Assembly: GCF_036013745.1 (NCBI RefSeq)
Contig: NZ_CP107880.1
Coordinates: 1,488,001-1,552,000, forward strand
Reading direction: 5' to 3'
Length of the DNA: 64,000 nucleotides
From: Streptomyces sp. NBC_00483
Lineage (GTDB): Bacteria > Actinomycetota > Actinomycetes > Streptomycetales > Streptomycetaceae
The notes beneath the pieces are model-generated. The model was not told where the DNA came from. It worked only from the letters and a program-made list of their open reading frames with translations, and did no database searches. Below, one piece after another: positions 1 to 54,332 of this stretch. Position 1 is the stretch's first letter. Each line of letters begins with the position of its first letter. The translations under genes and the position numbers were made by a program.

Positions 1-497
1 CGGCTTCGCAGTTCCCGTACGAGGGGGTGGTAGCGGTACACGAACGGCACGGCGGCGACGGTTCCGGCCCGTTCGGCGGCCGCCACCAGGCGCTCGGCGT
101 CGGCCGCGCCGGTCGCCAGGGGCTTCTCGCACACCACGTGCTTCCCCGCCGCGAGGGCGCGTTCGGCGTACGCGGCGTGCGTGCGGTTGGGGGTGCAGAT
201 GTGCACGACGTCGACGTCCGCGTCCGCGAGGAGGTCGTCGAAGTCTCCGTAGGCGGCGACGGGTTGACCGGGGGCCGACCAGTCGGCGGCGACCTGCGTG
301 GACCGCTCCGGGGTGGAGGCGAGCACGCCGGTGAGGCGGCCTCCGGCGGTGCGGACCGAGCGGCGGTGCACCTCGGCGATCATTCCCGCGCCGACGATCG
401 CGGAGCGGACCTGAGCGGTCGCGGAGCGGACTTGAGCAGTCGCGGAGCGGACCCGAGCGGTCGCGGGGTCAGGGCTTGGTGGTGCGGGCGGGGCCAT
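1..497 (-). CDS. Gfo/Idh/MocA family oxidoreductase, 3' end cut by window edge
   Basis: NAD(P)-dependent sugar or polyol dehydrogenase of the Gfo/Idh/MocA family; the substrate cannot be read from the sequence. About 165 N-terminal residues are visible. The dinucleotide-binding motif GAGMIAEVH lies near residues 36-44 and the hallmark EKP motif (CEKPL) near 124-126, so about half of a usual 330-390 aa protein is present. The ATG at 495-497 follows a GAAAGGAGGG ribosome binding site. The start is odd: some 30 residues precede the Rossmann motif and contain a seven-residue repeat, VRSATAQ, from a 21-bp tandem repeat; family members usually begin within ten residues of the motif. Divergent from the ROK regulator gene. 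Confidence 0.85.
   Translation of the reverse strand, partial: MAPPAPPSPDPATARVRSATAQVRSATAQVRSAIVGAGMIAEVHRRSVRTAGGRLTGVLASTPERSTQVAADWSAPGQPVAAYGDFDDLLADADVDVVHICTPNRTHAAYAERALAAGKHVVCEKPLATGAADAERLVAAAERAGTVAAVPFVYRYHPLVRELRS
400..462. repeat. 21-bp tandem repeat, three copies, in the 5' coding end of the oxidoreductase gene
   Basis: Copies lie at 400-420, 421-441 and 442-462, differing at a few positions. The period is a multiple of three, so the frame is kept, and the repeat adds seven-residue units between the start codon and the nucleotide-binding fold. Confidence 0.9.
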
Positions 498-660
498 CGC
501 GGCCGCCCTCCTTTCGACGTCGACACATGACGCCGTGCACACCATTGGCGGAGGTAACTCGTCCCGCAGACGAACGTAGGTCACTCAATTCCGTCCTGAC
601 AAGCGAAAGTTACTGCATCTTGAGAGTCATAAATGGCGGGGGCGCGTACGGTGTGCAGCC

Positions 661-1974
661 ATGTCCCCTTCTGCCTTCGCCCGCGCCCGGTTGTCCGTAC
701 CCACGTTGCGGTTCCGGGACGGCGGCGGGCTGCTGTACTCCACGCTGGCCCGCCTGATCGCGTCCGGCGCCGCCGTGCACCGCGGTGACCTGGTCGAACG
801 CGCGGGGCTCGCCCGCTCGACCGTCACCCGGCACCTGGACGCGCTGATCGAGGCCGGTGTGGTGGTCGAGGGCGGGGGCGTCGCGCGCGCGGGACGTGGT
901 CGCCCGCCGCAACTCCTCGCGCTCAACCCGCGGGCGGGGCTGGTCGCCGCGGCGGACATCGGGGCCCGCGACGCCCGCCTCGCGATCGCCGACCTTTCGC
1001 AGAACCCGCTGGCCACCGCCCACATACCCGTGGATCTGGCACAGGGCCCGAAGGAGGTGCTCGGCCAAGTGGAGGCGTCCCTGCGCGAACTGCACGCCTC
1101 CGCGACCGACGACCACGCCCCGCTGTGCGCGGTCGCGGTCGGGCTTCCGGGTCCCGTCGATCACGACGCGGGGGCACCCGTACGGCCGCCGATCATGCCG
1201 GGGTGGGACGGGTACCCGGTGGGGGACGCGCTCGCGGAGCGCTTCGGCTGCGCGGTGCTCGTCGACAACGACGTGAACCTGATGGCGCTCGGCGAGGCGC
1301 GCAGCCTGCCCGAGGACCAACTCCCGCTGCTGTTCGTGAAGGTGTCGACCGGCATCGGCGGCGGCCTGGTCTCCGCGGACGGCGAGCTGCACCGCGGGGC
1401 GGACGGCGCCGCGGGCGACATCGGGCATCTCCCGGTCACCTCCGGTGGCGCGTCGGAGGTGGTGTGCCGGTGCGGGAAGAGCGGATGCGTAGAGGCGGTC
1501 GCGTCGGCGGCGGTGATGATCCGAGGGCTCAACGCAGGGCGGGAGACGGCGGGTTCGGAGCTGCGGACGACCGGTGACCTGGCGCGGCTCGTGGCGCACG
1601 GCGACCCCGATGCGCTGCGTGTGGTGCGCGCCGGCGCCGAGCGGATCGGTGAGGTGGTGGCGCTTCTGCTGCACGTCTTCAACCCGGCGCGGGTGGTGCT
1701 CGGCGGAGCCCTGGCGGGGGCGGGGGACGAGCTGCTCGCCGGGGTGCGGTCGGTGGTGTACCGGCAGGCACTGCCGCTGGCCACGCGCAAGCTCGTCCTC
1801 GAACCGAGTGTGCTGGACGAGCGGGCGGGGTGGGTCGGCGGCACGGTTCTGGCGGTGGAACATGTGCTGTCGCCGGACGGGGTGGTGGATCTGATGGCAC
1901 GTCGGCAGGAAGCTTCTCAGGCCACGGGGCTCCGCCCCGGACCCCGCTGGCTCTCGTCCCAGAGCGGGGCTTAA
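661..1974 (+). CDS. ROK family transcriptional regulator
   Basis: Sugar-responsive repressor of the ROK/NagC/XylR type, 437 aa. An N-terminal winged HTH (GDLVERAGLARSTVTRHLDA, about residues 40-60) is followed by a sugar-kinase-like ROK domain. Visible signatures are GLPGPVDHDAG, the glycine-rich STGIGGGLV loop and the zinc-binding CRCGKSGCVE cluster near residue 270 (CxCGxxGCxE). The HTH makes it a regulator rather than a plain glucokinase. It lies between two Gfo/Idh/MocA genes, one divergent and one downstream, so local control of sugar or polyol oxidation is the simplest reading. The effector is unknown. Confidence 0.9.
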   Translation: MSPSAFARARLSVPTLRFRDGGGLLYSTLARLIASGAAVHRGDLVERAGLARSTVTRHLDALIEAGVVVEGGGVARAGRGRPPQLLALNPRAGLVAAADIGARDARLAIADLSQNPLATAHIPVDLAQGPKEVLGQVEASLRELHASATDDHAPLCAVAVGLPGPVDHDAGAPVRPPIMPGWDGYPVGDALAERFGCAVLVDNDVNLMALGEARSLPEDQLPLLFVKVSTGIGGGLVSADGELHRGADGAAGDIGHLPVTSGGASEVVCRCGKSGCVEAVASAAVMIRGLNAGRETAGSELRTTGDLARLVAHGDPDALRVVRAGAERIGEVVALLLHVFNPARVVLGGALAGAGDELLAGVRSVVYRQALPLATRKLVLEPSVLDERAGWVGGTVLAVEHVLSPDGVVDLMARRQEASQATGLRPGPRWLSSQSGA

Positions 1975-1987
1975 AACGCGCGCACCC

Positions 1988-2016
1988 TTGACATCCCTCA
2001 CCCCCGGTGTTTGATT
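1988..2016 (+). promoter_or_regulatory. Possible promoter of the downstream oxidoreductase gene
   Basis: A perfect TTGACA hexamer at 1988-1993 is followed after 17 bases by TTGATT, a weak -10 match. It is the only recognisable promoter-like sequence in the 117-bp gap before the next start codon. Confidence 0.4.
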
Positions 2017-2091
2017 GGCGCAAGATCGTGCACTTCGCGGCGGAGGTCTCGTCCCCCGAACCCACCCCGCCCGAAGGGAAGTTGCCCCCTC

Positions 2092-3183
2092 ATGAGCCGC
2101 AGCGTCAACGTCGGCATTCTCGGCACCGGTTCGATCTTCCGGGCCTACGCCGCCGGCATCGCCACCCTCCCCGAGCTGACCGTCACCCGCGTCGCCGACG
2201 TCGACCTGGACCGGGCCCGCACGGCCGCCGCCGAATTCGGCATCCCGGCCGCGGGCACCACCGAGGAACTGCTGGCCGACGACGACGTGGAGATCGTCGT
2301 CAACATCACCCCGCCCGCCGTGCACGCACCCCTCAACGACGCCGCCCTGCGCGCCGGAAAGCACGTCTACACCGAGAAGCCGCTCGCCGCGACCACCCAG
2401 CTGGCGCGCGCCAACCTGGTGACCGCGACGGAGACGGGCCGCACGCTGGGCGGCGCGCCCGACACGTTCCTCGGCACCGCCGGGCAGACGGCGCGCGCCG
2501 CGATCGACGACGGCCTGATCGGTACGCCCTTCGCCGCCACCAGCTTCGTACGATCCAGCCGGGTGCAGGCCTGGCACCCGAGCCCCGGCTTCTTCTTCCA
2601 GGCAGGCGGCGGGCCCGTCCTCGACTGGGGTCCGTACCATGTGGCCGCGCTGGTCAACCTGTTGGGCCCGGTGCGGGACGTCATGGGCGCCAACGCGATG
2701 GCGGAGCAGGAGCTGACGGTGACGGCCCCCGCGCGCACCGTCGAGTACGTGCCGGTGGAGGTGCCCACGCACGCCACCTCCATCCTCCGTTTCGACTCGG
2801 GGGTGTTGGCGACGGTGATGTACTCCTTCGACGTGTGGGACACCGAGCTGCCACACCTGGAGATCTACGGCACCGGCGGCACGCTCTCCCTGCCGGACCC
2901 CAACACGTTCGACCGCCCGGTGCGCATCAAGCGCCGTGGTGACACCGAGTGGAGCGAACTCCCCGCGGTGACCGAGGCGAAGGCGCCCGCCACAGGCCCG
3001 TTCCGTGGCCTCGGCGTCCTCGACCTGGCGCGGCACCTGGACGGCGGTCCGCACCGCGCGTCCGGCGAGTTCGCCTTCCACGTGCTCGACGTCCTCGAGC
3101 GGATCTCCCTCGCGTCCCCGGAGTCCGGCGCGCTCACGGTGCTGTCGTCCGTGAAGCGGCCGGCTCCGCTGGATCGTCCCTGA
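2092..3183 (+). CDS. Gfo/Idh/MocA family oxidoreductase
   Basis: NAD(P)-dependent sugar/polyol dehydrogenase, 363 aa, normal family length. The Rossmann motif GILGTGSIF begins at residue 8, the EKP motif (YTEKPLAA) is near residues 94-96, and the C-terminal half is the usual oxidoreductase beta-sheet domain. The frame is open further upstream, but ATG 2092 is chosen because it sits just before the Rossmann strand and follows GAAGGGAAG. It probably depends on the preceding ROK regulator. The substrate is not predictable; inositols, 1,5-anhydro sugars and N-acetylhexosamines are all used by this family. Confidence 0.88.
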   Translation: MSRSVNVGILGTGSIFRAYAAGIATLPELTVTRVADVDLDRARTAAAEFGIPAAGTTEELLADDDVEIVVNITPPAVHAPLNDAALRAGKHVYTEKPLAATTQLARANLVTATETGRTLGGAPDTFLGTAGQTARAAIDDGLIGTPFAATSFVRSSRVQAWHPSPGFFFQAGGGPVLDWGPYHVAALVNLLGPVRDVMGANAMAEQELTVTAPARTVEYVPVEVPTHATSILRFDSGVLATVMYSFDVWDTELPHLEIYGTGGTLSLPDPNTFDRPVRIKRRGDTEWSELPAVTEAKAPATGPFRGLGVLDLARHLDGGPHRASGEFAFHVLDVLERISLASPESGALTVLSSVKRPAPLDRP

Positions 3184-3195
3184 AAGCCCGCAGTC

Positions 3196-3654: not shown

Positions 3655-3656
3655 GG

Positions 3657-5018: not shown

Positions 5019-5076
5019 GGGTCGCTCCGTGAACGTCGTTGATCAAGCGGATGGGGACGGGTGGGGACTGCTCTGG

Positions 5077-5118
5077 TGACTGGGGAGTCGTTACGCGTGA
5101 CTGGGGAGTGGTTACGCG
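5077..5118. repeat. 21-bp tandem duplication over the thiolase stop codon
   Basis: Copies at 5077-5097 and 5098-5118 are identical except for one base. Copy two holds the thiolase stop (TAA, complement of 5112-5114). Copy one holds the same triplet exactly 21 bp downstream in frame (5091-5093), an in-frame back-up stop. Confidence 0.9.
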
Positions 5119-6338
5119 GCGATGCGCTCGAAGACCGCGGCGAGGCCCTGGCCGCCTCCGATGCACATGGTCTCCAGGCCGTAGCGCGCCCCGCTGCGCT
5201 GCATCTCGCGGGCGAGCGTGGCGAGGATGCGGGCGCCGGTGGCACCGACGGGGTGACCGAGCGAGACACCGGAGCCGTTGACATTGATGCGCTGCTCGTG
5301 GTCCTTCTCGCCGAGGCCCAACTCGCGCGTGCATGCGAGCACTTGGGCGGCGAAGGCCTCGTTGAGCTCGATCAGGTCGAGGTCGGCGAGGGTGAGTCCG
5401 GCGCGCTCCAGGGCGGCGCGGGTGGCCGGGACGGGGCCGATGCCCATCGTCGCGGCGGGGACGCCCGCGCGGGCGAAGGAGACGAGGCGGACCAGCGGGG
5501 TGAGCCCGAGCCGTTCGGCGGTGGCGGCGCTGGTGACGAGGCAGGCGGCGGCCGCGTCGTTCTGGCCGCTGGCGTTGCCCGCGGTGACGGTGGCCTCCGC
5601 GTCGGACTTGGCCATGATGGGCCGCAGCGCGGCGAGTTGCTCGGCGGTGGTGTCCGGGCGCGGGTGCTCGTCGGCGCTGACGACGGTGTCACCCTTGCGG
5701 CCTCGCACGGTGACGGGCACGGTCTCCGCGTCGAAGCGCCCCTCCTGAGCCGCACGGGCGGCACGCTGCTGCGAGCGCAGGGCGAGGGCGTCCTGGTCGG
5801 CGCGACTGATGGCGTACTCGCGGCGCAGGTTCTCGGCCGTCTCGATCATGCCGCCGGGCACGGGGTGGTGGATGCCGCCCGCGGTGACCCGGCCGCGCGC
5901 GAGCGAGTCGTGCAGCTGGAGGCCGGGGCCCTTGATGCCCCAGCGGCCCTCGTGCGTGTAGTACGGGGCGGCGCTCATCACGTCGACGCCGCCGGCGATC
6001 ACGACCTCGCTGAAGCCCGCCCGGATCTGCATGGCGGCGTCGAGGACGGCCTGAAGACCGGAGCCGCAGCGACGGTCGATCTGGGCGCCGGTGACGGAGT
6101 CGGGAAGACCGGCGTCCAGGGCGGCGACGCGGCCGATGGCCGGGGCGTCCGAGGAGGGATAGGCCTGCCCGAGGATCACCTCGTCGACGCGGTCCGGGGC
6201 GATTCCGGTGCGGGCGACGAGCTCGGCGACGACGCGCGCGGCGAGCGCCGCGGGTGTCTGCCGGGCGAAGGCGCCGCCGAAGCGCCCGATGGGGGTGCGC
6301 ACTGGTTCGCAGATGACGACATCGGCCTGTTCGGGCAC
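5112..6338 (-). CDS. Acetyl-CoA C-acyltransferase (thiolase)
   Basis: Degradative thiolase, 408 aa, cleaving a 3-oxoacyl-CoA with CoA. The nucleophile Cys91 is in [16 protein letters not shown] is in the C-terminal half, the His motif reads [12 protein letters not shown] and the second catalytic Cys is in MCIGGGQG. The start is GTG 6338, eight bases after GAAAGGTG; the upstream in-frame ATG would add residues before the conserved beginning [16 protein letters not shown]. Context (CoA-transferase like those acting on 3-oxoadipate, two-domain hydroxyacyl dehydrogenase) favours 3-oxoadipyl-CoA or another 3-oxo-dicarboxyl-CoA, which is inference. The 3' end is tandemly duplicated. Confidence 0.92.
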
Positions 6339-6401
6339 GGCGGAACACCTTTCGGGCGGCTCAGGGAGGTGAGCCGACCATCGCACCCGACCGCTTAGTC
6401 G

Positions 6402-6413
6402 GTCCAATACCAA
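6402..6413 (-). promoter_or_regulatory. Shared box TTGGTATTGGAC upstream of thiolase gene
   Basis: The 12-mer lies 64 bp upstream of the thiolase start and recurs exactly at 7416-7427 before the CoA-transferase genes, in the same orientation to the downstream gene. The LysR gene between them is the obvious candidate binder. Confidence 0.6.
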
Positions 6414-6430: not shown

Positions 6431-6478
6431 ACGGGTGGCGTCTCAATCGACGCTACGGATGGCGAATCAATCGGCGCT
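6431..6478. repeat. 24-bp tandem duplication over the LysR stop codon
   Basis: Copies at 6455-6478 and 6431-6454 match at 20 of 24 positions. The inner copy holds the LysR stop (TGA, 6467-6469). The outer copy holds TGA again 24 bp further in frame, an in-frame back-up stop. Confidence 0.85.
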
Positions 6479-7387
6479 TCCGGGAGTCGGCAGCGCCTCC
6501 TCGCAGACCTCGAGCACCGCACGTAGAGCGGCGGAGGGGTTGTCGGCCCGCCAGGCAAGGGCCGCCTGGCGCCGGATGGGCTCTCCCGCGAGGGGCCGAT
6601 AGACGAGCCCGGTCTGCTGGATGTGCCGGACCGAGGACACCGTGAGCGTGACACCGACACCGGCCGCCACGAGCGCCAGGATCGTGTACGAGTCGGGGGC
6701 CTCCTGCACCACACGCGGGTTGAACCCGGCGGCCTCGCAGGTCTCCACCATCGCGTCACGGACCGTGGACCCGGCGTTCGCGGGGAAGGAGACGAAGGGC
6801 TCCTCGGCGAGGATGCCGATGGGGATCTTGTCGCGCGTTGCGAGGTGGTGGTCGGAGGGCAGCGCGCACAGCAGCTCCTCCTCGTCGATGACCCGGTGGG
6901 CCACACCCGGCTGGGTCACCGGGAGCCGCACGAAGCCGAGGTCGAGGGAGCCGTCCGCGACCCGGTCGAGCGCGACGTTGGCGTACGTCTGGCCCTTCAT
7001 GACCAGTTCGATGGCCGGGTGCGCGGCCCGCACGGCACGGGTGAGCCGGGGCAGTGTCTCGTGGCTGGAGGCGCCCGCGAACCCGATCGTGACCCGGCCG
7101 AACTCCCCGCGCCCGGCCGCCTTCGCCGCCCGCACCGCCGTGTCGAGGTCGGCGAGCACGGTGCGTACGGGTTCGAGGAAGGACTCCCCCGCGCTGGTGA
7201 GGCGCACGGAGCGGGTGTTGCGCTCGAAGAGCTGGACGCCGAGCTCCTTCTCCAGCTGCCGGATCTGCTGGCTCAGCGGCGGCTGCGCCATCTGCAGCCG
7301 CTTGGCGGCCCGGCCGAAGTGGAGCTCCTCGGCGACGGCGGTGAACGCGGTGAGATGACGCAGCTCCACGAGCCCGCCCCCATTCAT
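6467..7387 (-). CDS. LysR family transcriptional regulator
   Basis: LysR-type regulator, 306 aa. The N-terminal winged HTH reads LRHLTAFTAVAEELHFGRAA and then AQPPLSQQIRQLEKELG, followed by the periplasmic-binding-like effector domain. It lies between the thiolase gene (same strand) and the divergent CoA-transferase operon, the usual arrangement for a LysR activator of an aromatic or organic-acid pathway. A GTG at 7369, giving VELRHL, is an equally plausible start because a GGGGGCGGG stretch precedes it. The identical 12-bp box upstream of both flanking transcription units is a likely target. The 3' end is tandemly duplicated. Confidence 0.9.
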   Translation of the reverse strand: MNGGGLVELRHLTAFTAVAEELHFGRAAKRLQMAQPPLSQQIRQLEKELGVQLFERNTRSVRLTSAGESFLEPVRTVLADLDTAVRAAKAAGRGEFGRVTIGFAGASSHETLPRLTRAVRAAHPAIELVMKGQTYANVALDRVADGSLDLGFVRLPVTQPGVAHRVIDEEELLCALPSDHHLATRDKIPIGILAEEPFVSFPANAGSTVRDAMVETCEAAGFNPRVVQEAPDSYTILALVAAGVGVTLTVSSVRHIQQTGLVYRPLAGEPIRRQAALAWRADNPSAALRAVLEVCEEALPTPGSAD

Positions 7388-8454: not shown

Positions 8455-9287
8455 GCGCGGCACACGACAAGGACGCGACACACGACAAGGACCTGACCAC
8501 CATGACTGCTGCCACGCCCGGGACCGCCGAGGCGGTCACCTCTTCGGAGCTGCTCTCCGTCGTCGCCTCACGCGAACTGGCCGCCCGCCGCACGGTGTTC
8601 GCCGGCATCGGCCTTCCCACCCTCGCCACCGAACTGGCACACCTGACGGTCGCCCCGCAGATCGAGGTCGTGTACGAGTCCGGGGTGTGCGGCGCCCACC
8701 CCTCGCACCTGCCGGAGACCATCGCGGACGCCGTGCTCATCTCGGGCGCGGAGGCGGTGCTCTCGATGCCGGCCCTGTTCGGCTGCGTGCTGCAGGGCGG
8801 ACACATCGACGTCGGCTTCCTCGGCGCCGCGCAGATCGACCGCTGGGGCAACCTCAACACCTCGGTCATCGGGGACTGGGAGAGCCCGTCGGTGCGGCTG
8901 CCGGGATCCGGCGGCGGCGTCGAGGTGATGGCCAACTCCCGTGAGGTCTTCGTCGTGATGCGCCGCCACAACCCGCGCTCGTTCACCGAGACCCTCGACT
9001 TCTGCACCACGCCAGGACCCGACCGCGCGCTCGCGGAGGGCATCCGGCCGCTGGGCGTCGGTGTCACGCGTGTCATCACCGAGCTGGGCATCCTGGCCCG
9101 CGAGGGCGTCGGCGAGGAACTGCGGCTGACCGCCGTCCACCCCGGTGTCACGGTCGAGCAGGTGAAGGAGGCGACGGGCTGGGACCTGAAGGTCGCCGAC
9201 CACGTCGACACGGTGGAGCCGCCGAGCGCGGCGGAGCTGCGCCTGCTGCGCGAGGACGTCGACCCCGGCCGGGTCTATCTCCGCTGA
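8451..9287 (+). CDS. CoA-transferase subunit B
   Basis: Beta subunit of the family I CoA-transferase, 278 aa from the GTG that overlaps the subunit A stop. The motif VVYESGVCGAH near residues 73-83 contains the glutamate expected to form the glutamyl-CoA thioester. The first 17 residues contain an 18-bp duplicated segment (HDKDATHDKDLT); an in-frame ATG at 8502 gives a start closer to the family norm, so the GTG is chosen only on the overlap. Probably forms a heterotetramer with subunit A. The 3' end carries a 21-bp triplication including the stop. Confidence 0.88.
   Translation: MSAAHDKDATHDKDLTTMTAATPGTAEAVTSSELLSVVASRELAARRTVFAGIGLPTLATELAHLTVAPQIEVVYESGVCGAHPSHLPETIADAVLISGAEAVLSMPALFGCVLQGGHIDVGFLGAAQIDRWGNLNTSVIGDWESPSVRLPGSGGGVEVMANSREVFVVMRRHNPRSFTETLDFCTTPGPDRALAEGIRPLGVGVTRVITELGILAREGVGEELRLTAVHPGVTVEQVKEATGWDLKVADHVDTVEPPSAAELRLLREDVDPGRVYLR
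8465..8500. repeat. 18-bp direct duplication at the CoA-transferase B start
   Basis: Two adjacent imperfect 18-bp units (each beginning GACAAGGAC) lie between the coupled GTG start and the alternative ATG at 8502, encoding two DKD-containing hexapeptides. Confidence 0.6.
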
Positions 9288-9343
9288 CACACCCCCGTAC
9301 TCCGCCGATCCACACCCGTACTCCGCTGACCCACCCCGACGTA
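9279..9343. repeat. 21-bp tandem repeat, three copies, over the CoA-transferase B stop
   Basis: Copies at 9279-9299, 9300-9320 and 9321-9343 (the last two bases longer), each beginning CTCCGC. The stop TGA (9285-9287) lies in copy one; copy three repeats TGA at 9327, 42 bp downstream and in frame. The repeat fills most of the gap before the next gene. Confidence 0.85.
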
Positions 9344-23137: not shown

Positions 23138-23236
23138 GTGGAGCACACCGAGAGCGCCGACATCGTCGAGACCGCTGAGAACGTCGAGCCCGCTGAGAAC
23201 GCCGAGAACGTCGAGAACGGAAGTCGACCCCGATGA
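23138..23236 (+). other. Possible 32-codon coupling ORF with internal repeat
   Basis: A GTG-started frame runs from just after the binding-protein stop to a TGA that overlaps the permease ATG (ATGA). It encodes a very acidic, repetitive peptide (ETAENVEPAENAENVEN) from an 18-bp repeat. It could couple translation across the gap or simply be slippage-derived spacer. No good ribosome binding site is visible. Confidence 0.3.
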
Positions 23237-24198: not shown

Positions 24199-25068
24199 AT
24201 GAGCGTTCCCATGAGCAAGAGTCATGTGAGCAAGAGTCATGCGAAGTTCGGCCGGTCGTGGTGGCCCGCGCACATCCTGGTGTGGGGGTACGCGGTGTTG
24301 CTCGCGGTGCCGCTGTACTACTTCGTCGCGTCCTCGTTCAAGTCCAATGACGCGATCTTCGGCAGCCCGTTGGCGCCGCCGGCCTCGCTCGGCCTCGACA
24401 ACTTCACGACGGCCTTCCGGACCGCGGGCCTCGGCACCGCGGTGGTGAACTCCGCGCTGGTGACCGTGGTGGCCCTGGCGTTGACGCTCGGGCTCGCGGT
24501 TCCGGCGGCGTTCGCGCTCGCCCGTTCCGAGGGCCGGGCGGCGTCGGTGATCGAGAAGGTGTTCTCGCTCGGGTTCCTGATCCCGACGTTCGCCGCCCTG
24601 TTCCCCACGTTCCTGCTGGCGGCCGCCGCGGGCCTGTTCCACACCCGTACGTTCATGGTGCTGCTGCTCCCGGCGACCGCGCTGCCGCTGTCGGTGGTGA
24701 TCCTGGTGCAGTTCATGCGAACCATCCCGAAGGAGATGGAGGAGGCAGCGCGGATGGACGGCGCCTCCACCTTCGCGGTACTGCGCCACATCTATACGCC
24801 GATGTGTCTGCCCGGCATCGCCACGGTGCTGCTCCTCAACTTCCTGAGTTTCTGGAACGAGTACCTGTACTCTCTCGTCCTCATCGGCCCCGACCCGGAC
24901 CTGCGCACGGTCCAAGTCGCCCTGCCCACCCTGAAGTCGGTGACCGGCACGGACTACGGTGTGCTGACGGCGGGCACCGTGCTCACCCTCGTCCCGGTGT
25001 GGCTCGTGTACACGGTGCTTCAGAAGAGGATGCAGACGGCCCTGGTCAGTGGCGCGGTGAAGATGTGA
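24199..25068 (+). CDS. Sugar ABC transporter permease, MalG/LacG-like
   Basis: Second channel subunit, 289 aa, with six helices and an EAA loop EEAARMDGASTFAVLRHIY (about 175-195). The N-terminus contains a five-residue repeat (MSKSH/VSKSH) from a 15-bp duplication immediately after the start codon. Its stop overlaps the LacI start by four bases, so the regulator is translated as part of the operon. Confidence 0.92.
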   Translation: MSVPMSKSHVSKSHAKFGRSWWPAHILVWGYAVLLAVPLYYFVASSFKSNDAIFGSPLAPPASLGLDNFTTAFRTAGLGTAVVNSALVTVVALALTLGLAVPAAFALARSEGRAASVIEKVFSLGFLIPTFAALFPTFLLAAAAGLFHTRTFMVLLLPATALPLSVVILVQFMRTIPKEMEEAARMDGASTFAVLRHIYTPMCLPGIATVLLLNFLSFWNEYLYSLVLIGPDPDLRTVQVALPTLKSVTGTDYGVLTAGTVLTLVPVWLVYTVLQKRMQTALVSGAVKM

Positions 25069-31332: not shown

Positions 31333-32730
31333 TACTGCAACGGTGCTTGCCGTGACTGGTGGCCAGGTCAGGGGCTGTGTCCGCGTCGTTTGTAGTGACT
31401 GGTGCGGGCCTGGTGTTGCCGACGGCGGCGCCAGGTCGACCAGTGGAGGATGTGCTCGACAGGCCTGGGCCGGCGGTTGGCGAGACGGGTGATCAGCCGT
31501 CGTATCTCGGCGAGGCTCAGGTGGACCAGCTGGGAGGATCCGTTTCTGCTTTCCCGGCATCCAACTCCCGGGCTCGCAGGACGGTCAGGCAGGCGTGGGC
31601 GGCCATGGCGAGGGTCATGTGGCGGTGCCAGCCGGGATAGCGGCGGACTTGGTAGTCGTCCAGACCGCATTCCTGCTTGGCGCTTTGGAAGCACTCCTCG
31701 ATGGCCCACCGGCTGCCCGCGATGCGGATCAGCTCATCAAGCGTGGTCTCGGCGGGGCAGTAGGCGATGTAGTAGGAGATCTCCTGCGGGCGGGCAACGC
31801 TGCGGCGGGCGATGACCCAGTGGCGGCGGTCGGGCCGATGCCAGGGCCGGACCTCGACGCGTGCCCAGTCGTAGATCCGCGGACCGTGAGCCCCGCTGCC
31901 ACAGGAACGGCGCTTCCACTTCTGCGGGGCAAGGCCGTTGAACAGCTCGTGGACGGGATGGTCCAGTGCCCAGCGGGTGACGACGGTGTCGTGCCGGGTG
32001 GTGGCCATGACGTGGAAGATGTCCGCCCGTTCCAGCTCCGACCTCCAGCCCTTGCTGAACCCGTAGGCGGCATCCCCGGTCACCCACCGGAACGGGATCT
32101 GGTCCGCGATGGCGCGGCGGACCATCGCCTTGGCCATGGCCACCTTGGTCTCGAAGACGACCTCATCAGTGATGCCGGCCCGACGGCACCTATCCCGGTC
32201 GTCGGTCCAGGAGGCGGGCAGATACAGACGCCGGTCGATCAGCGTCCGCCCGCGGTCGGTTGCATAGGCGAGGAAGACGCCGACCTGGCAGTTCTCCGTC
32301 CGCCCGGCCGTGCCGGAGTACTGCCGCTGCACCCCTGCCGACCGCGTCCCCTTCTTCAAGAAACCCGTGTCGTCCACGACCAGGACCGCGTCCCGGCTAC
32401 CGAGGTTGTCGACCACGTACTGACGCACGTCATCGAGGACCTCGTCGGCGTTCCACTCGATCCGGTTCAGCATCCGGTGGATGCGGTCCGGGCCGTCATG
32501 GCCGGCTTCCTCTGCCAGCGTCCAGCCGTTCTTCCGCTGCAAGGGAGCGATCAGGCCCCGCATATAGGCCAGTGCCGATTCCCGAGGTTCTGACCTGCTG
32601 AAACGGTGCACGAACCGCCCATGCACAGCTTCCAGTTCACCCGCCCACAGCCTGACATCAGCTAGGTCCCCACCCATAATCACACCAACGACCGACCTGG
32701 CCACCAGTCACGGCAAGCACCGTTGCAGTA
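31333..32730 (-). mobile_element. IS701-family insertion sequence, 1398 bp
   Basis: The ends are perfect inverted repeats of at least 37 bp (31333-31369 and 32694-32730), starting TACTGCAACGGTGCTTGCC, flanked on both sides by CTAG (31329-31332 and 32731-32734). CTAG fits the 4-bp YTAR target duplication of this family. The single transposase gene runs leftwards and its 3' end is frameshifted. The right CTAG is also the left terminus of the 166-bp palindromic element, so the IS inserted into that element's end. Confidence 0.92.
31517..32677 (-). CDS. IS701-family transposase, C-terminus frameshifted
   Basis: DDE transposase, 386 aa as read from ATG 32677 (a GTG inside the inverted repeat at 32704 is the alternative). 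Recognisable parts are LVVDDTGFLKKGTRSAGVQR with a catalytic Asp, WVTGDAAYG with the second, and RWAIEECFQSAKQECGLDDY with the Glu. The frame stops at 31517, but a different frame from about 31530 to 31368 continues with SLAEIRRLITRLANRR and SHYKRRGHSP, the expected family C-terminus. A one-base deletion near 31530 would explain this; a programmed shift or sequencing error cannot be excluded. The stop of the second frame lies at the inner edge of the left inverted repeat. Confidence 0.88.
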   Translation of the reverse strand: MGGDLADVRLWAGELEAVHGRFVHRFSRSEPRESALAYMRGLIAPLQRKNGWTLAEEAGHDGPDRIHRMLNRIEWNADEVLDDVRQYVVDNLGSRDAVLVVDDTGFLKKGTRSAGVQRQYSGTAGRTENCQVGVFLAYATDRGRTLIDRRLYLPASWTDDRDRCRRAGITDEVVFETKVAMAKAMVRRAIADQIPFRWVTGDAAYGFSKGWRSELERADIFHVMATTRHDTVVTRWALDHPVHELFNGLAPQKWKRRSCGSGAHGPRIYDWARVEVRPWHRPDRRHWVIARRSVARPQEISYYIAYCPAETTLDELIRIAGSRWAIEECFQSAKQECGLDDYQVRRYPGWHRHMTLAMAAHACLTVLRARELDAGKAETDPPSWST

Positions 32731-38735: not shown

Positions 38736-39743
38736 ATGCAGATCGAGTACATCGGCGCCGACGAGCTGACGAAACTGCTGCCGCCCCGCGCGGCGGTCAC
38801 CGCGATCCGCGAGGCACTCATCGGCGGGCTCGACCCGGCGGCCGCGGGGCCGCCCCGCTCGATCCTCGAACTCCCGGAGGACCAGGGCCAGTTGCTCGCG
38901 ATGCCCGCCGCGTCCGAGTTCGGTGTCGGGGTGAAGGCGATCTCGGCCGTCCCCGCCAACGCCGACCGCGGCCTGCCCCGCATCCAGGGCGTCCACCTCG
39001 TCTTCCGCCCGCCGTCGTACGCACCCGCCGCGGTCGTCGACGGCGCGGCGCTGACCACGCTGCGTACGCCTGCCGTATCGGTGGCGGCGGTGCTGCCGCT
39101 GCTGACCCGGCCGGGGCGGCGGTGGCGGGTCGTGGTGTTCGGCGCGGGGCCTCAAGGGGCCGGTCATGTACGGACGTTGCGTGATGTCGGCGCCGATCTG
39201 GCCGAGGTGACGTACGTCGTACGGGATCCGTCGCGGGCGGATGCGGCGCTGGTCGGGGACGACAGCGTGGTGGCGACGGCGGACGCCGAGGCGTGGGTGC
39301 GGCGCGCCGACCTGGTGGTGTGCGCGACGCCCTCCCCCACCCCGCTCTTCGACTCGTCCCTCCTCGGCGACGACGCCGTCGTGCTGGCCGTCGGTTCGCA
39401 CGACGCCGACGCCCGCGAGGTGGACTCGGCCCTGACGGCCCGCGCCCAGGTGATCGTGGAGGACCCGGACACGGCGCTGCGGGAGTGCGGCGACATCGTG
39501 ATCCCCGTGGCGGAGGGCGTGTTGCCGGCCGAGCGGCTGCTCCCCATGGCACGGGTCGTACGCGACGAGTCGCAGTACGCCACCGACCGGCCCGTGCTGT
39601 TCAAGGGCTCGGGCATGGCCTGGCAGGACGCGGTGGTCGCGGACGCGGCGGTGCGGGCTTCGGACGGCCGTGTCGGTCCTGCCGCTTCGGACCACCGTGT
39701 CAGCCCTTCCGCTTCGGACGACCGCGTCGGCCCTGCCACTTAG
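38736..39743 (+). CDS. Ornithine cyclodeaminase/mu-crystallin family protein
   Basis: 335-aa NAD(P)-binding protein of the OCD/mu-crystallin family, which includes cyclodeaminases, alanine dehydrogenases and ketimine reductases. The Rossmann motif VFGAGPQGAGH is near residues 129-139; the N-terminal region has GVKAISAVPAN, with the substrate-binding Lys expected in this family. The ATG follows AGGAT. The last 28 residues are encoded by a 27-bp tandem repeat (units like ASDDRVGPA) and are unlikely to belong to the fold. The stop codon exists only because the fourth repeat copy has A where the others have C. Confidence 0.85.
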   Translation: MQIEYIGADELTKLLPPRAAVTAIREALIGGLDPAAAGPPRSILELPEDQGQLLAMPAASEFGVGVKAISAVPANADRGLPRIQGVHLVFRPPSYAPAAVVDGAALTTLRTPAVSVAAVLPLLTRPGRRWRVVVFGAGPQGAGHVRTLRDVGADLAEVTYVVRDPSRADAALVGDDSVVATADAEAWVRRADLVVCATPSPTPLFDSSLLGDDAVVLAVGSHDADAREVDSALTARAQVIVEDPDTALRECGDIVIPVAEGVLPAERLLPMARVVRDESQYATDRPVLFKGSGMAWQDAVVADAAVRASDGRVGPAASDHRVSPSASDDRVGPAT

Positions 39744-39765
39744 GACGATCGCGTCAGTCCTGCCG
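39658..39765. repeat. 27-bp tandem repeat, four copies, over two convergent gene ends
   Basis: Copies at 39658-39684, 39685-39711, 39712-39738 and 39739-39765, each beginning CTTCGGAC or CTTAGGAC. Copy four contains both the cyclodeaminase TAG (39741-39743) and the aldo/keto reductase TGA (complement of 39754-39756). Copy two repeats the latter in frame at 39700-39702. Confidence 0.93.
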
Positions 39766-40809
39766 GTCGAACTTGAGGTCTCCCCTCGTCACCGCCCGGA
39801 TGTGCCCGCTCGCGAGCATGTCGTGCGGGAAACCGAGTTCGATGGCGCTCGCCTCGTCGAGGCGCGACAGGTGGGCGTCGGTGAGGTCGACCTCCAGGGC
39901 CCCCAGATTGTCCTTCAGCTGCTCGGGGGTACGGGCGCCGATGATCGGTGCCGTCACCCCCGGGTTCCGCAGCGTCCAGGCGAGGGCGATCTGGGCGGGT
40001 GTGCGGCCCAGGTCCCCGGCGACCTCCTTCACCGCGTCGGCGATGGCGAGATTGCGTTCGGTGAGGGTGCCCAGCGCGAGGTTGAAGTTCCTGCGGGTGC
40101 CGTCGGCCTCCGCCGGGCGGAGGTCGTCGCGGCCGTACTTGCCGGTGAGCACGCCGCCGCCGAGGGGCGAGTAGGGGATCACTCCGAGGCCCAGCTCGCG
40201 TGCCATGGGGATCAGGTCGCGCTCCCCGCCGCGCTCGATCAGGTTGTACTCGATCTGCAGCGCGACCAACGGCGACCAGCCGCGCAGCTCGGCGATGGTC
40301 TGCATGCGCGCCACCTGCCATGCCGGGGCGTTGCAGATCGCCACGTAGAGGATCTTGCCCTGCCGGACCAGGTCGTCCAGGGCGCGCAGGGTCTCCTCGA
40401 CCGGCGTCGTGTCGTCCCATACGTGGAGGTAGAGCACGTCGATACGGTCGGTGTCGAGGCGGCGCAGGCTCTCCTCCACCGCGGCGAACAGGTTCTTGCG
40501 GTGGCCGCCGCCCGAGTTCGGGTCGCCGGGCGTGCGCAGCGTCGTGTACTTCGTCGCCAGTACGAGGCTGTCGCGCCGGTCGCGGGCGAAGGCGCCCAGC
40601 AGGCGCTCGGAGCTGCCGTTGTTGTAGGTGTCGGCGGTGTCGAGAAAGTTCCCGCCGCGCTCGACGTACAGGTCGAACAGCTTGCGCGCCTCGTCCCGCT
40701 CCGCGCCCCAGCCCGATTCGGTGCCGAAGGTGGCGGTGCCGAGGGCCAGCGGGGAGACCCGGAGGCCGGAGCGGCCGAGCAGCCGGTAGGTGTCGAGGGT
40801 GAGGGACAT
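39754..40809 (-). CDS. Aldo/keto reductase
   Basis: NADPH-dependent reductase, 351 aa, TIM-barrel fold. The start is YRLLGRSGLRVSPLALGTAT; the catalytic Asp/Tyr lie in FLDTADTYNNGSSE, Lys in VLATKYTT and His in VLYLHVWDD; the NADPH-binding end reads PIIGARTPEQL. ATG 40809 is preceded by AGGAG. Divergent from an XRE/MmyB regulator, a frequent streptomycete pairing in which the regulator controls the reductase. The 3' end lies in the 27-bp repeat. Confidence 0.92.
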   Translation of the reverse strand: MSLTLDTYRLLGRSGLRVSPLALGTATFGTESGWGAERDEARKLFDLYVERGGNFLDTADTYNNGSSERLLGAFARDRRDSLVLATKYTTLRTPGDPNSGGGHRKNLFAAVEESLRRLDTDRIDVLYLHVWDDTTPVEETLRALDDLVRQGKILYVAICNAPAWQVARMQTIAELRGWSPLVALQIEYNLIERGGERDLIPMARELGLGVIPYSPLGGGVLTGKYGRDDLRPAEADGTRRNFNLALGTLTERNLAIADAVKEVAGDLGRTPAQIALAWTLRNPGVTAPIIGARTPEQLKDNLGALEVDLTDAHLSRLDEASAIELGFPHDMLASGHIRAVTRGDLKFDRQD

Positions 40810-40940
40810 CGTGTGGTTCTCCTGTGCTCGTGTGCTGCGGTGCACGCGTTCTGCCGTGCTCGTATTGCGCTGCGTTCGTGTTCTGCTGACGGGAACCAGG
40901 CTCTGCCCGTCGCGGGCCGCGCATAAGGGAGGGCCGATCC

Positions 40941-41854: not shown

Positions 41855-42820
41855 TTGATCACTCTGGAAGATGTCGAGTCGGCAGCCCGGCGCATCGGCG
41901 GGCGCGTGCGGCGCACCCCGCTCATGGAGGTGGCTCCGCAGGAGTTCGCGCCGACGGCCTGGCGGGCCTGGCTCAAGCTCGAACTGTTGCAGCACACCGG
42001 CTCGTTCAAGGCCCGCGGCGCCTTCAACCATCTGCTCACCGCGACGGACCGGGGCCTGTTGACCGATGCCGGGGTGGTCGCCGCCTCCGGTGGCAACGCG
42101 GGGCTCGCCTTCGCGTACGCCGCCGCCGAACTGGGCACCCGCGCCGAGGTTTTCGTGCCCGAGACGGCACCGGCCGTGAAGGTGGCCAAGCTGCGCGAGC
42201 TGGGCGCGGACGTGGTGCAGGTCGGCGTGAAGTACAACGACGCCTACGAGGCCGCGACCAAGCGGGCCGCCGATTCCGGCGCCCTGTTCTGTCACGCCTA
42301 CGACCAGCCCGCGGTGGGCGCGGGGCAGGGCACGATCGGCCTCGAACTGTGGGAGCAGACCGCGGGCGAGCTGGACACCGTACTGGTGGCCGTCGGTGGC
42401 GGCGGGCTCATGGCGGGGGTGGCCACCGCCCTCGCGGGCCGGGCCAGGGTCGTCGCCGTCGAGCCGGAGAACGCGCCGACGCTGCACGCGGCACTCGCCG
42501 CGGACGGACCGGTGACCGTGCCCGTCTCGGGCGTCGCCGCGGACTCGCTCGGCGCGAGCCGGATCGGCGACATCGCCTTCGAGGCCGCCCGCGCCACGAG
42601 GGTCGAGTCGGTCCTCGTGACCGACGAGGCCATCGTCCGGGCCCGCCGTGCGGTCTGGGACCGGTACCGGTTGGCCGTCGAGCACGGCACGGCGGCGGCC
42701 GCGGCGGCCCTGCTCTCGGGTGCCTACCGACCCGCGCCCGGCGAGCGGGTCGCCGTGCTGCTGTGCGGCGCGAACACGGACCCGTCGGACCTGACGGGTG
42801 CGGTCGAGCCCACTCACTGA
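41855..42820 (+). CDS. Threonine/serine dehydratase, PLP-dependent
   Basis: Fold-type II PLP enzyme, 321 aa, deaminating a hydroxy-amino acid to a 2-oxo acid. The PLP lysine is Lys52 in GSFKARGA; SGGNAGLAFAYAA binds the cofactor; the phosphate loop is VGGGGLMAG. It lacks an ACT regulatory domain, so it is catabolic or a racemase-like relative rather than biosynthetic IlvA. The TTG start has AGAAAGG seven bases upstream. It lies 31 bp after the XRE regulator in the same direction. The stop is inside a 34-bp tandem repeat. Confidence 0.9.
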   Translation: MITLEDVESAARRIGGRVRRTPLMEVAPQEFAPTAWRAWLKLELLQHTGSFKARGAFNHLLTATDRGLLTDAGVVAASGGNAGLAFAYAAAELGTRAEVFVPETAPAVKVAKLRELGADVVQVGVKYNDAYEAATKRAADSGALFCHAYDQPAVGAGQGTIGLELWEQTAGELDTVLVAVGGGGLMAGVATALAGRARVVAVEPENAPTLHAALAADGPVTVPVSGVAADSLGASRIGDIAFEAARATRVESVLVTDEAIVRARRAVWDRYRLAVEHGTAAAAAALLSGAYRPAPGERVAVLLCGANTDPSDLTGAVEPTH

Positions 42821-42899
42821 CGGGAAAACGAGTGCGGATGTGCCCACTCACTGACAGGACAACGGGTGCGGTCGAGCCCGCTCATCGGCGGGACAAAGA
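42798..42899. repeat. 34-bp tandem repeat, three copies, over the threonine dehydratase stop
   Basis: Copies at 42798-42831, 42832-42865 and 42866-42899, each beginning GTGCGG. Copy one includes the last codons and TGA (42818-42820). The period is not a multiple of three, consistent with the array being mostly downstream of the stop. Confidence 0.9.
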
Positions 42900-47336: not shown

Positions 47337-47340
47337 CGTG

Positions 47341-48840
47341 TCACCGGTCCTTCTTCGTCGTGCTCGGGCGGATCACTGCCATGCGGGTCACCGTGAGTTC
47401 GTCGATCGCGAACCGCGGCCCCTCGCGGCCCGCCCCGGAGTCCTTCACGCCGCCGTACGGCATGGTGTCGGAGCGGAAGCCGGGGACCTCGTTGACGACC
47501 ACGCCGCCCGCCTCCAGGCGGTCCACCGCGGCGAACGCGGTGTCCAGGGACGCGGTGTAGACGCTGGCGTGGAGGCCGTATCGCGAGTCGTTGACCAGGG
47601 CGAACGCCGCGTCCATGTCCGGGACCGAGCGGAGGCACACCACCGGGCCGAAGACCTCCTCGCTCCAGACGGCGAGGTCGGGGTCCGGGTCGAGCAGGAG
47701 CGTGGGCTCCAGCACGCCGCCCGTCGCCCCGCCGCCGACCGCGAGCGTCGCGCCCGACTTCACCGCTTCCTCCACCCACGTACGGACGCGGTCGGTCGAC
47801 CCCTCGTCGATCAAGGCCGAGACACGTGTCTCGGGGGCGCGCGGGTCGCCCGTCGTGATGTCCGGGATGCGGGCCGTCAGACGGGTCACGAACTCCTCGC
47901 GCACCGCCTCCTCCACGATGACCCGCTGCACGCTGATACAGGCCTGCCCTGAGGCGTAGTAGCCGCCCCGGACGACGGCGTCGGCCGCGGCGTCGAGGTC
48001 GGCGTCGGCGGCCACCACCAGGGCCGCGTTGGAGCCGAGTTCGAGGAGCGTCTTGGTGGGGGCCGCGTCCTTGGCGATGCGGTGACCGACGGCGGCGGAG
48101 CCGGTGAAGGAGACCGCGCCGATGCGGCGGTCGGTGGTGAGTGTCTCGCCCACCTCCGGGCCTCCGGTCACCAGTTGCACCGCCGCCCGCGGCGCCCCGG
48201 CCTCGTACAAGGCCTCGCGCAGCAGGTGCACGAGCCACAGCGTCGCCAGTGGAGTCTGCGGGGCAGGCTTGGCGATGACCGGGCAGCCGGCCGCGACCGA
48301 GGGCGCGAGCTTGTGCGCGGCGAGGAGGAGCGGGTAGTTGAAGCCGGCGATGCCGACCACGACGCCGATCGGCTTGCGGGTCCAGAAGCCGAGCAGCCCC
48401 TCGCCGGAGGGCAGCAGGTCGAGCGGCACCGTCTCGCCGTGCAGCCGGGCCACTTCCTCGGCGGACGTGCGCAGCGTCAGGAGCGTACGGTCCACCTCCA
48501 CCCGGCAGTCGACCAGGGGTTTTCCCGTTTCCAGAACGAGGAGGTGCTCGAAGTCGGCGCGGCGGGCGGCGATCGCGTCGTACGTCGACTGCAGGGCCGA
48601 GCTGCGGATGTGCGAGGGGAGCGCGCCGACCCGGGTACGGACCGCGACCGCCTCGTCCAGCGCCCGCCGGGCCAGCGCCGTGTCGCCGACCGGCGCGTGG
48701 CCGATGACCGACCCGTCGTACGGGAAGCGCACATCCTCGCTCGCCGGGGCCGGCAGCCAGGTGTCTCCGACGGGCAGGCCCTCGGGGAACTCCGGCTTCA
48801 ACGGGCCTGCTGTTGCCGCCGGTTCGGGGTGTGCGTTCAC
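47341..48840 (-). CDS. Aldehyde dehydrogenase family protein
   Basis: NAD(P)-dependent aldehyde oxidation to acid, 499 aa. The catalytic Cys301 is in YYASGQACISVQR, Glu in LELGSNAAL, the cofactor loop in FTGSAAVGHRI and a conserved FNYPLLLAAHKLAP. The frame is open upstream, but GTG 48840 overlaps the ATPase stop and fits the family start. Carried in an ABC import operon with an SDR, it probably processes the aldehyde released from the imported substrate. Confidence 0.92.
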   Translation of the reverse strand: MNAHPEPAATAGPLKPEFPEGLPVGDTWLPAPASEDVRFPYDGSVIGHAPVGDTALARRALDEAVAVRTRVGALPSHIRSSALQSTYDAIAARRADFEHLLVLETGKPLVDCRVEVDRTLLTLRTSAEEVARLHGETVPLDLLPSGEGLLGFWTRKPIGVVVGIAGFNYPLLLAAHKLAPSVAAGCPVIAKPAPQTPLATLWLVHLLREALYEAGAPRAAVQLVTGGPEVGETLTTDRRIGAVSFTGSAAVGHRIAKDAAPTKTLLELGSNAALVVAADADLDAAADAVVRGGYYASGQACISVQRVIVEEAVREEFVTRLTARIPDITTGDPRAPETRVSALIDEGSTDRVRTWVEEAVKSGATLAVGGGATGGVLEPTLLLDPDPDLAVWSEEVFGPVVCLRSVPDMDAAFALVNDSRYGLHASVYTASLDTAFAAVDRLEAGGVVVNEVPGFRSDTMPYGGVKDSGAGREGPRFAIDELTVTRMAVIRPSTTKKDR

Positions 48841-49757
48841 GCGGGGTGCTCCTGGTTGAGGTCGGCCGCCGTCACTCCGGCCAGTGCCTTCTTCAGCGTG
48901 GGCACGGCGGCGATCAGCCTGCGGGTGTAGGGGTGTCGGGGATCCTCGTAGAGCTGCTCGGTCGGCCCCGTCTCGACGATCTCGCCCGCCTGCATGACGG
49001 CGACGCGGTCGCACACGTGCCGGACGACGGACAGGTCGTGGGAGACGAAGACGAGGGTGAGGTTCAGCTCGTCGACGAGGTCGGCGATGAGGTTGAGGAC
49101 CTGGGCGCGCACGGACACGTCCAGGGCGCTGACCGGCTCGTCCGCCACGATGATGTTCGGCCGTGGCGCGAGGGCCCGGGCGATGGAGATGCGCTGGCGC
49201 TGGCCGCCGGAGAACTGGTGCGGGTAGCGCCGGGCGGCATCCGCGCCCAGGCCCACGGATTCGAGGAGTTCGGCCACCCGCTCCTTGCGGCTCCTGATGC
49301 CCTGCGCGACGAGCGGTTCCGCCACGATGTCACCCACCTTCATCCGTGGGTCGAGCGAGCTCATCGGGTCCTGGAAGACGAGTTGGAGGCGTTCGCGGAC
49401 GAAGCGGAGCTGTCGTTCACGGAGCCGGGTGATGTCCCGGCCGTCGATCTCGACCGTGCCGCTGGTCGGCTTGTCGAGCCCGGCCAGGATGCGCAGCAGC
49501 GTCGACTTGCCGCACCCCGACTCCCCCACGATGCCGAAGCGCCCGCCCTGCGGCACGGAGAAACTGACACCGCGCAGGGCGTGCACGGGCGGGGCGGGGG
49601 TGCGCAGGGACGTCCGCGGGCGGTGGTAGTCGCGGGTGACGTCGGTGACGCGGAGGGCGTCGGTACCGGCCTGACCCTCTCCACCGGCCCGTTGCTCTCC
49701 ACCGGACTGTCCCTCTCCATCGGACTGCCGCTCTCCACCGGTCTGTTGCTCAGCCAC
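48837..49757 (-). CDS. Peptide/nickel-type ABC transporter ATP-binding protein (DppF/OppF-like)
   Basis: 306 aa. Walker A is GESGCGKST, the ABC signature is FSGGQRQRI, Walker B is IIVADEPVSALD and the H-loop is SHD. The first 30 residues are an unusual hydrophilic tail of repeats (GGERQ, DGEGQ, GGEQR, GGEGQ) from an 18-bp tandem repeat. GTG 49757 follows AGGAGG and overlaps the preceding ATPase gene by eight bases. It pairs with the other ATPase to power the importer. Confidence 0.92.
   Translation of the reverse strand: MAEQQTGGERQSDGEGQSGGEQRAGGEGQAGTDALRVTDVTRDYHRPRTSLRTPAPPVHALRGVSFSVPQGGRFGIVGESGCGKSTLLRILAGLDKPTSGTVEIDGRDITRLRERQLRFVRERLQLVFQDPMSSLDPRMKVGDIVAEPLVAQGIRSRKERVAELLESVGLGADAARRYPHQFSGGQRQRISIARALAPRPNIIVADEPVSALDVSVRAQVLNLIADLVDELNLTLVFVSHDLSVVRHVCDRVAVMQAGEIVETGPTEQLYEDPRHPYTRRLIAAVPTLKKALAGVTAADLNQEHPA
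49677..49748. repeat. 18-bp tandem repeat, four copies, at the ATPase N-terminus
   Basis: Copies at 49677-49694, 49695-49712, 49713-49730 and 49731-49748, each starting CTCTCCA. The frame is kept and each copy adds six residues to a hydrophilic tail before the ABC fold. Confidence 0.9.
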
Positions 49758-52597: not shown

Positions 52598-52613
52598 CGG
52601 TTCGGGCCGCCTT

Positions 52614-54182: not shown

Positions 54183-54201
54183 GCACGACACCTTCCGCCG
54201 T

Positions 54202-54218
54202 AACTGGCCTGACCAGTA
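54202..54218. promoter_or_regulatory. FadR-type operator candidate
   Basis: AACTGGCCTGACCAGTA has 5-bp dyad arms ACTGG/CCAGT and resembles the FadR-subfamily consensus (TGGT-type half-sites around a short spacer). It lies between the divergent binding-protein and amidase genes, whose operon encodes a FadR-type GntR regulator. Confidence 0.65.
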
Positions 54219-54224
54219 AGCTCA

Positions 54225-54264
54225 CTTGACAGGTACCGTGACGACTGAGGGAGTACCTGTCAAG
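54225..54264. promoter_or_regulatory. 12-bp perfect inverted repeat with 16-bp spacer
   Basis: CTTGACAGGTAC and GTACCTGTCAAG frame 16 bases. Each arm holds a TTGACA-like -35, reading outward from the right-hand arm and inward from the left. It may be two half-operators or a divergent promoter element. Confidence 0.6.
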
Positions 54265-54275
54265 AGGGCGGCGCC

Positions 54276-54332
54276 TGTCCAATGGAGAGATGGCTGTCCA
54301 TGGGAGAGGGTCCCGTCCAGAGGAGAGGGTGC
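54276..54332. repeat. 19-bp tandem repeat, three copies, multiplying the amidase ribosome binding site
   Basis: Copies at 54276-54294, 54295-54313 and 54314-54332 each contain GGAGAG or GAGAGGG. The last copy places AGGAGAGGG five bases before the amidase ATG at 54335; the others are near-duplicates upstream. Confidence 0.75.

Follow-up and report, generated by a model that had tools for sequence, protein, structure and literature searches.

Several described systems resemble the short tandem arrays that gather at gene ends in a 64,000-nucleotide stretch of the Streptomyces sp. NBC_00483 chromosome (hereafter the window). The MIRU loci of mycobacteria are likewise actinobacterial, lie between genes and may overlap stop and start codons; MIRU, however, are one dispersed family, whereas the single unit tested here came without a full second copy among the scored matches. 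Bacterial minisatellites, or variable number tandem repeats (VNTR), consist of a few head-to-tail units of 10-60 bp whose copy number differs between strains, and all of these properties hold here. The present arrays differ from them in being mostly short, imperfect and located at gene ends, and one of 13 window arrays varies between two strains. According to PMC2884548, many of the small variable segments seen within bacterial species probably stem from replication slippage between short repeats. Borg tandem repeats, as presented in the relevant portion of PMC9879509, are intergenic or have the first unit partly within a gene end, and their unit lengths are multiples of three inside open reading frames and mostly not between genes. 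The same portion describes rapid independent formation and units that are nearly all unique, so that the likeness to the Streptomyces arrays extends to these properties as well as to the frame and, for some arrays, the gene-end position; Borg repeats are perfect and A-enriched, however, whereas the Streptomyces arrays are GC-rich and their copies differ. The author of a first-pass annotation of the window knew of no described process that matches the pattern; this was too strong, since such arrays are commonly explained by slippage between short repeats, and Borg repeats are similar (PMC9879509, in the portion cited). Finally, new C-termini formed by stop-codon loss into non-coding DNA are described for yeast and Drosophila in part of PMC4494051. 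One window array (39657-39765), which adds a C-terminal tail of about three repeat units, resembles these cases, whereas most stop-spanning arrays here keep the stop in the first unit.

The window corresponds to contig positions 1488001-1552000 of a 10.24-Mb single-contig genome (71% GC). Gene calling relied on a hexamer model trained on this genome, which gives 58 genes and 93% coding sequence in the window. Arrays were collected with Tandem Repeats Finder (TRF), and the main set is defined by a period of 12-60 bp and a score of at least 60. The chromosome sample of 1.564 Mb (1402 genes) comprises 57 stretches of 20 kb and a 424-kb block that includes the window; L012, L047 and L048 overlap this block and were left out of the density counts. 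A further 400 kb of the same genome served in an alignment attempt, which gave a short collinear piece only, and as a random control, and lies outside the array densities.

The sample contains 217 arrays of the main set (227 at a period of at least 12 and a score of at least 60, and 218 when overlapping rows are merged otherwise at another threshold). Three codon-block shuffles gave 29, 30 and 30 arrays of period at least 12, so that about 30 are expected by chance. Chance alignment or assembly artefact is therefore hardly credible as a general explanation. Although mis-assembly of tandem repeats can occur, and one array of the window (54276-54332) falls under the TRF threshold, the separately deposited genome of Streptomyces sp. 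NBC_01016 (locus L081), the closest named relative found, has the same copy number for 12 of the 13 window arrays, among them one that shows a 1-base indel; the remaining array differs by exactly one unit.

The arrays are biased toward the stop side of genes. The first-pass annotation had proposed, from eight arrays, that they favour gene termini, and this holds beyond the window: 42 of the 217 arrays overlap a stop, as against 11.6 +- 3.1 under uniform placement, and 94 have a stop no more than 60 bp away (31.4 +- 5.2 expected), whereas only 7 overlap a start (12.8 +- 3.6 expected). The arrays are not merely intergenic, nor are they spread evenly over intergenic sequence, which had been named as the outcome that would contradict the proposal. 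When the 98 arrays with intergenic midpoints are re-placed randomly in intergenic DNA, 15.3 +- 3.8 overlap a stop and 18.4 +- 3.7 a start; the observed numbers are 35 and 3, respectively. Expressed as density, intergenic sequence in the 60 bp that follow a stop has 1356 arrays per Mb, 4.5 times the 303 of far intergenic sequence; the 60 bp leading up to a start have 200, and positions that belong to both flanks have 875. Inside genes, the interior has 77 per Mb, with 215 at the 5' end and 108 at the 3' end (60 bp each). Array coverage is highest, at 8.2% of bases, between 20 and 40 bp past the stop, and has dropped to 1.4% at a distance of 160 bp. The same stop-side bias is common to other Streptomyces loci: in 54 of them (1.00 Mb) the flanks after stops have 30 arrays, or 1117 per Mb, as compared with 412 per Mb in stop-start gaps, 245 in far intergenic sequence, 148 before starts and 80 in coding sequence.

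Unit length depends on position relative to the reading frame. The period is a multiple of three in 104 of 113 fully coding arrays, in 20 of 40 partly coding arrays and in 28 of 64 fully intergenic arrays. The earlier observation that periods tend to be multiples of three thus stands for coding arrays; outside genes it does not (p = 0.085 against one third), and the tendency comes mainly from the coding frame. The stop lies inside the first unit in 39 of 43 gene-array pairs, a result that is partly definitional, and 22 of these 39 units are multiples of three; an array of this kind leaves the protein as it was, and its unit is therefore free to have any length. The converse prediction, that a stop beyond the first unit would allow only multiples of three, found no support (2 of 4).

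These patterns are probably explained by the ordinary gain and loss of minisatellites under the filter of selection, in a genus where such events abound. Short head-to-tail duplications would form chromosome-wide by replication slippage or template misalignment, and the resulting arrays would afterwards gain or lose units, as is seen between two strains. Purifying selection would clear most of them, namely those that break the frame of a gene, the majority of in-frame ones in gene cores, and many of those in promoter regions. Survivors would be found in near-neutral sequence, mainly the 60 bp or so that follow a stop, with unconserved N- and C-terminal tails as a secondary refuge where units would mostly be multiples of three. 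A duplication over a stop should be silent at any unit length because the first copy retains the full coding sequence and the stop, whereas a duplication over a start would alter the leader; a stop-side bias would therefore appear without a dedicated process.

The comparison with NBC_01016 records the changes that have occurred since these two strains diverged. In the first 19 kb the two genomes are collinear at 98.4% identity, and collinearity extends over 431 kb in four blocks. An extra 400 kb of NBC_01016, in which 47 arrays were counted overall, added about 55 kb of alignment; the comparison by sequence class covers 481,054 aligned bases. Substitutions are most frequent in the 60 bp after stops, with a rate of 0.037; the rate is 0.011 in far intergenic sequence, 0.014 before starts, 0.016 in stop-start gaps, 0.012 in coding interiors, 0.0095 in the first 60 bp of genes and 0.016 in the last 60 bp. 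With 15 bp around indels masked, the rates in successive 20-bp bins past the stop are 0.034, 0.025, 0.023, 0.018 and 0.011; since the peak survives, it is not due to misalignment at indels. In the 431-kb alignment, divergence in the 3' flank (0.0351 at 12,554 sites) is near that at fourfold-degenerate sites (0.0314 at 72,914 sites), so that the flank evolves at about the neutral rate. Thus, the 60 bp after a stop are probably near-neutral and not clearly hypermutable, while promoters and deeper intergenic sequence look constrained, which is the pattern predicted by relaxed selection. The suggestion, already made from the window, that selection acts against slippage inside genes is supported.

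Collinearity with NBC_01016 ends at about position 1919141 of the chromosome (block position 431141), where the NBC_01016 contig goes on with an opposite-strand match to about 7.6-8.1 Mb here; 2.27 Mb of our genome matches a different NBC_01016 contig, which points to a large rearrangement or an assembly difference.

Insertions and deletions follow the substitutions in peaking after stops. Indels of 1-5 bp are most frequent in the 60 bp after stops, at 2470 per Mb as against 635 in far intergenic sequence. Among indels of 6-200 bp between the strains, 41 of 78 are tandem by an 80% rule, as compared with 22 of 1560 random sites; copy number thus does vary between strains, as the first-pass annotation had asked to be checked. 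Tandem indels of at least 6 bp are again most frequent in the 60 bp after stops, with 1010 per Mb (9 events) as against 173 in far intergenic sequence (3 events; p 0.004). They amount to 843 per Mb in stop-start gaps (3 events), 320 in the first 60 bp of genes (8) and 242 in the last 60 bp (6), and are lowest before starts, at 135 (2; the event at array 398-466 is classed as upstream of a start though it is coding), and in coding interiors, at 26 (10). Whole-unit changes in stop-overlapping arrays include one of 31 bp at block position 185171 and one of 15 bp at 272593. A 7-bp CTCGGGG array past a stop at block position 128131 (about 1616131 here) is 70 bp longer than in NBC_01016.

Relative to far intergenic sequence, the 3' flank shows an excess of 4.5-fold for arrays and 5.8-fold for tandem indels, above the 3.4-fold excess of substitutions. 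This surplus is what would be expected if gene ends were mutational hotspots, that is, if replication meeting transcription termination, or paused polymerases, added duplications on top of relaxed selection. The many tandem indels in short stop-start gaps and gene starts, despite few substitutions there, point the same way. The tandem counts are small (41 events), however, and start calls are uncertain; moreover, the similarity of 3'-flank and fourfold-site divergence leaves no room for strong general hypermutation, and the units are no richer in hairpins than controls, nor do array flanks fold better (see below). We therefore regard a hotspot as unlikely, though it deserves to be taken seriously.

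Besides this surplus, several further points weigh against an explanation by slippage and selection alone. Stop-start gaps, where a stop and a start are both no more than 60 bp away, combine the low substitution rate given above with high densities of arrays and tandem indels, and the first 60 bp of genes likewise combine few substitutions with frequent tandem indels. At 80-100 bp past stops, substitutions are back at 0.011 and arrays still cover 4.3% of bases. The 3' flank diverges slightly more than fourfold sites, most at G (0.0335 versus 0.0248). The gene calls come from our own hexamer caller, with uncertain starts, and the misplaced event at 398-466 and the partly definitional first-unit count must be added. 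The formation step, too, is one that we infer: for 12 of the 41 tandem indels (extra copy here, one-unit step, at least 8 bp), the match beyond the unit, a proxy for short homology at the step, averages 8.5 bp, as against 1.0 at random; most of these events are unit changes in pre-existing repeats, so that the founding event is unseen. Note that base-level constraint and tolerance of in-frame or spacer insertions can differ, and that wrong starts can blur the classes.

Another point of the same kind comes from other genera. The cross-genus set, drawn from 80 loci, consists of the 54 Streptomyces loci and 22 loci of Amycolatopsis, Saccharopolyspora, Saccharomonospora and Prauserella (L124-L158); L081 is the strain pair, and L123, L147 and L153 were used only in the survey of orthologous gene ends. 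At similar GC content, Amycolatopsis, Saccharopolyspora and relatives have 46.8 arrays per Mb as compared with 122.5 in Streptomyces (shuffled, 11.7 and 27.2), and in 3' flanks 1 array in 8.4 kb as compared with 30 in 26.9 kb (p 0.005). The value for 28 short loci from further genera of the class is intermediate, with 7 arrays in 97.6 kb or 71.7 per Mb (shuffled, 34.2), and E. coli K-12 has one array in 150 kb. Selection alone does not obviously explain this difference in number between lineages. A bolder reading is that the Streptomyces lineage has a raised rate of 15-35 bp tandem duplication relative to the sampled actinobacteria, preferring gene ends, by which ends would be continually rebuilt and C-termini extended where the insertion is in frame; we think it rather improbable. 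Loss of mismatch repair is not a convincing cause. In the part of a Streptomyces mutation-accumulation study that concerns NucS (PMC11109965), the indel rate was reportedly not considerably affected by loss of NucS, though the indels of that study are 1-4 bp and events of 15-35 bp lie outside this range.

In a survey of five orthologous gene ends (score at least 50, period at least 9), arrays were present in 9 of 55, 3 of 76, 12 of 80, 11 of 80 and 3 of 62 loci. Four of these hits are NBC_01016 with the window's own units, and some hits after the first CoA-transferase gene start at least 40 bp past the stop and probably lie in the next gene. Judged by eye, the units at orthologous ends are unlike between species, except in L081, in the pair L092/L095, and for conserved coding letters where a unit begins in the gene. 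Because the units differ, the arrays appear mostly to arise anew and not to be conserved elements. L092 and L095, two Streptomyces species, have a similar 24-bp unit over the stop region of the second CoA-transferase gene, with 4.3 and 5.5 copies, respectively; this may be an older array that still varies.

The same data speak to the idea that the arrays are functional gene-end elements maintained for termination, mRNA 3' ends or expression tuning. Their location directly past stops would suit such a role, as would the density by gap type, which is greatest in convergent gaps (959 per Mb, as against 523 in co-directional and 273 in divergent gaps). However, few orthologous gene ends carry arrays and the units are mostly unrelated, the flanks diverge at about the neutral rate, and there is no enrichment of hairpins: the longest stem averages 3.12 in units and 3.18 in control flanks (p 0.94). 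A stem of at least 6, as in palindromic REP/BIME elements, occurs in 1 of 58 units and in 4.9% of controls. Nor do array flanks resemble terminators, the 60-nt folding energy being -21.4 for 77 flanks with arrays and -24.4 for 554 without (p 0.067). We therefore judge a selected function very unlikely, and the role in termination suggested earlier for the window arrays found no support. Duplication driven by hairpins or terminators was rejected for the same lack of enrichment.

A dispersed, MIRU-like family is not indicated for the one array searched in this respect, 39657-39765: among the 40 of 101 candidates scored, its unit has no second full copy in the genome, which also counts against a functional element. 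The best second match to the query 39640-39780 among these is 26 bp at 93% identity (E 0.008), and a search in megablast mode found no plasmid match.

In the window itself, TRF finds 12 arrays of score at least 60 in 64 kb, a load that is not out of the ordinary in this genome. Of the eight arrays reported in the first-pass annotation, seven were recovered, and the periods were as given there (21, 21, 24, 21, 27, 34, 18 and 19). Gene calls and translations also agree with the description of five arrays on stops (5112, 6467, 9287, 39743 with 39754, and 42820), two in 5' coding regions and one on a ribosome binding site.

Four of the five stop-covering arrays hold the stop in the first unit. They are the 21-bp array of two copies at 5076-5118 (minus strand), with the stop of a thiolase gene (5112-6338, minus) and an equal copy number in NBC_01016; the 24-bp array of two copies at 6431-6478 (minus), with the stop of a LysR-type regulator gene (6467-7387, minus); the 21-bp array of 2.8 copies at 9279-9337 (plus), with the stop (9285-9287) of the second CoA-transferase gene; and the 34-bp array of three copies at 42794-42896 (plus), with the stop (42818-42820) of a gene for a pyridoxal phosphate-dependent enzyme, which extends into the called start of a methyltransferase gene at 42866. 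The fifth is the 27-bp array of four copies at 39657-39765 (plus), which spans the stops at 39743 and 39754 of a convergent gene pair. The plus-strand partner, a gene of the OCD/mu-crystallin family (38736-39743), has its stop in the fourth copy, so that about three units are translated as a C-terminal tail. The minus-strand partner, an aldo/keto reductase gene (39754-40809), has its stop close to its own end of the array. A role in gene-end evolution had also been suggested, to which this one case in the window is relevant.

Two of the reported arrays lie in N-terminal coding sequence. The N-terminus of a Gfo/Idh-type oxidoreductase (3-497, minus) contains A-T-A-(R/Q)-V-R-S three times, encoded by the 21-bp array of 3.3 copies at 398-466 (minus). 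There are three units here and two in NBC_01016, an exact 21-bp, in-frame difference of seven residues, and the Pfam domain PF01408 starts at residue 31, where the array ends. The 18-bp array of 4.8 copies at 49665-49751 (minus) forms the repeated N-terminus of an ABC ATPase (48837-49757, minus) and touches the stop of the upstream gene at 49750. The eighth array, a degenerate 19-bp repeat of three copies at 54276-54332 (plus), carries GGAGAG in each unit and directly precedes an amidase start at 54335. It is weaker, being absent from the TRF list of the window even at a minimum score of 30. Period-19 matches occur at 28 of 38 positions, however, a number not reached in any of 2000 shuffles of the letters in its 257-bp region, and given the choice of this region within the window we regard the support for its reality as moderate.

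Five arrays of score at least 60 add to this list, four at gene junctions or N-termini and one in a divergent gap. An 18-bp array of two copies at 8456-8492 (plus) lies at the junction of the two CoA-transferase subunit genes, where the stop is at 8454 and the start at either 8451 (GTG) or 8502 (ATG), with AAGGA in each unit. Another 18-bp array, of 3.9 copies at 23149-23219 (plus), sits between a solute-binding-protein gene with its stop at 23130 and a permease gene with its start at 23233. An exact 15-bp duplication at 24212-24241 (plus; two copies) encodes MSKSH-VSKSH in the N-terminal part of a permease (24199-25068), and a 33-bp array of 1.9 copies at 59910-59973 (plus) lies in the stretch of an aldehyde dehydrogenase gene (59863-61320) that encodes the N-terminal part. 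The array in the divergent gap, at 40816-40888 (no strand assigned), is a weak 16-bp repeat of 4.6 copies with 68% matches.

Apart from the arrays, a segment of about 1.4 kb at 31333-32730 of the window, with a DDE_5 transposase gene (31517-32563, minus), is missing in NBC_01016. The two alignment blocks share 4 bp at this site, as expected from a 4-bp target duplication, and we take the insertion to be IS701-like.

We found no report of a stop-side bias of arrays in Streptomyces in our searches of the literature on tandem repeats, indels and stop shifts at gene ends, which reflects the limits of that search and is not proof of absence. Our results suggest that the 60 bp or so after a stop in Streptomyces are a near-neutral record of the mutation process. 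This record would include tandem duplications of 15-35 bp, a class that short-read mutation studies may miss. The arrays also provide many candidate loci for strain typing, and the results offer a baseline for testing functional claims on gene-end repeats.

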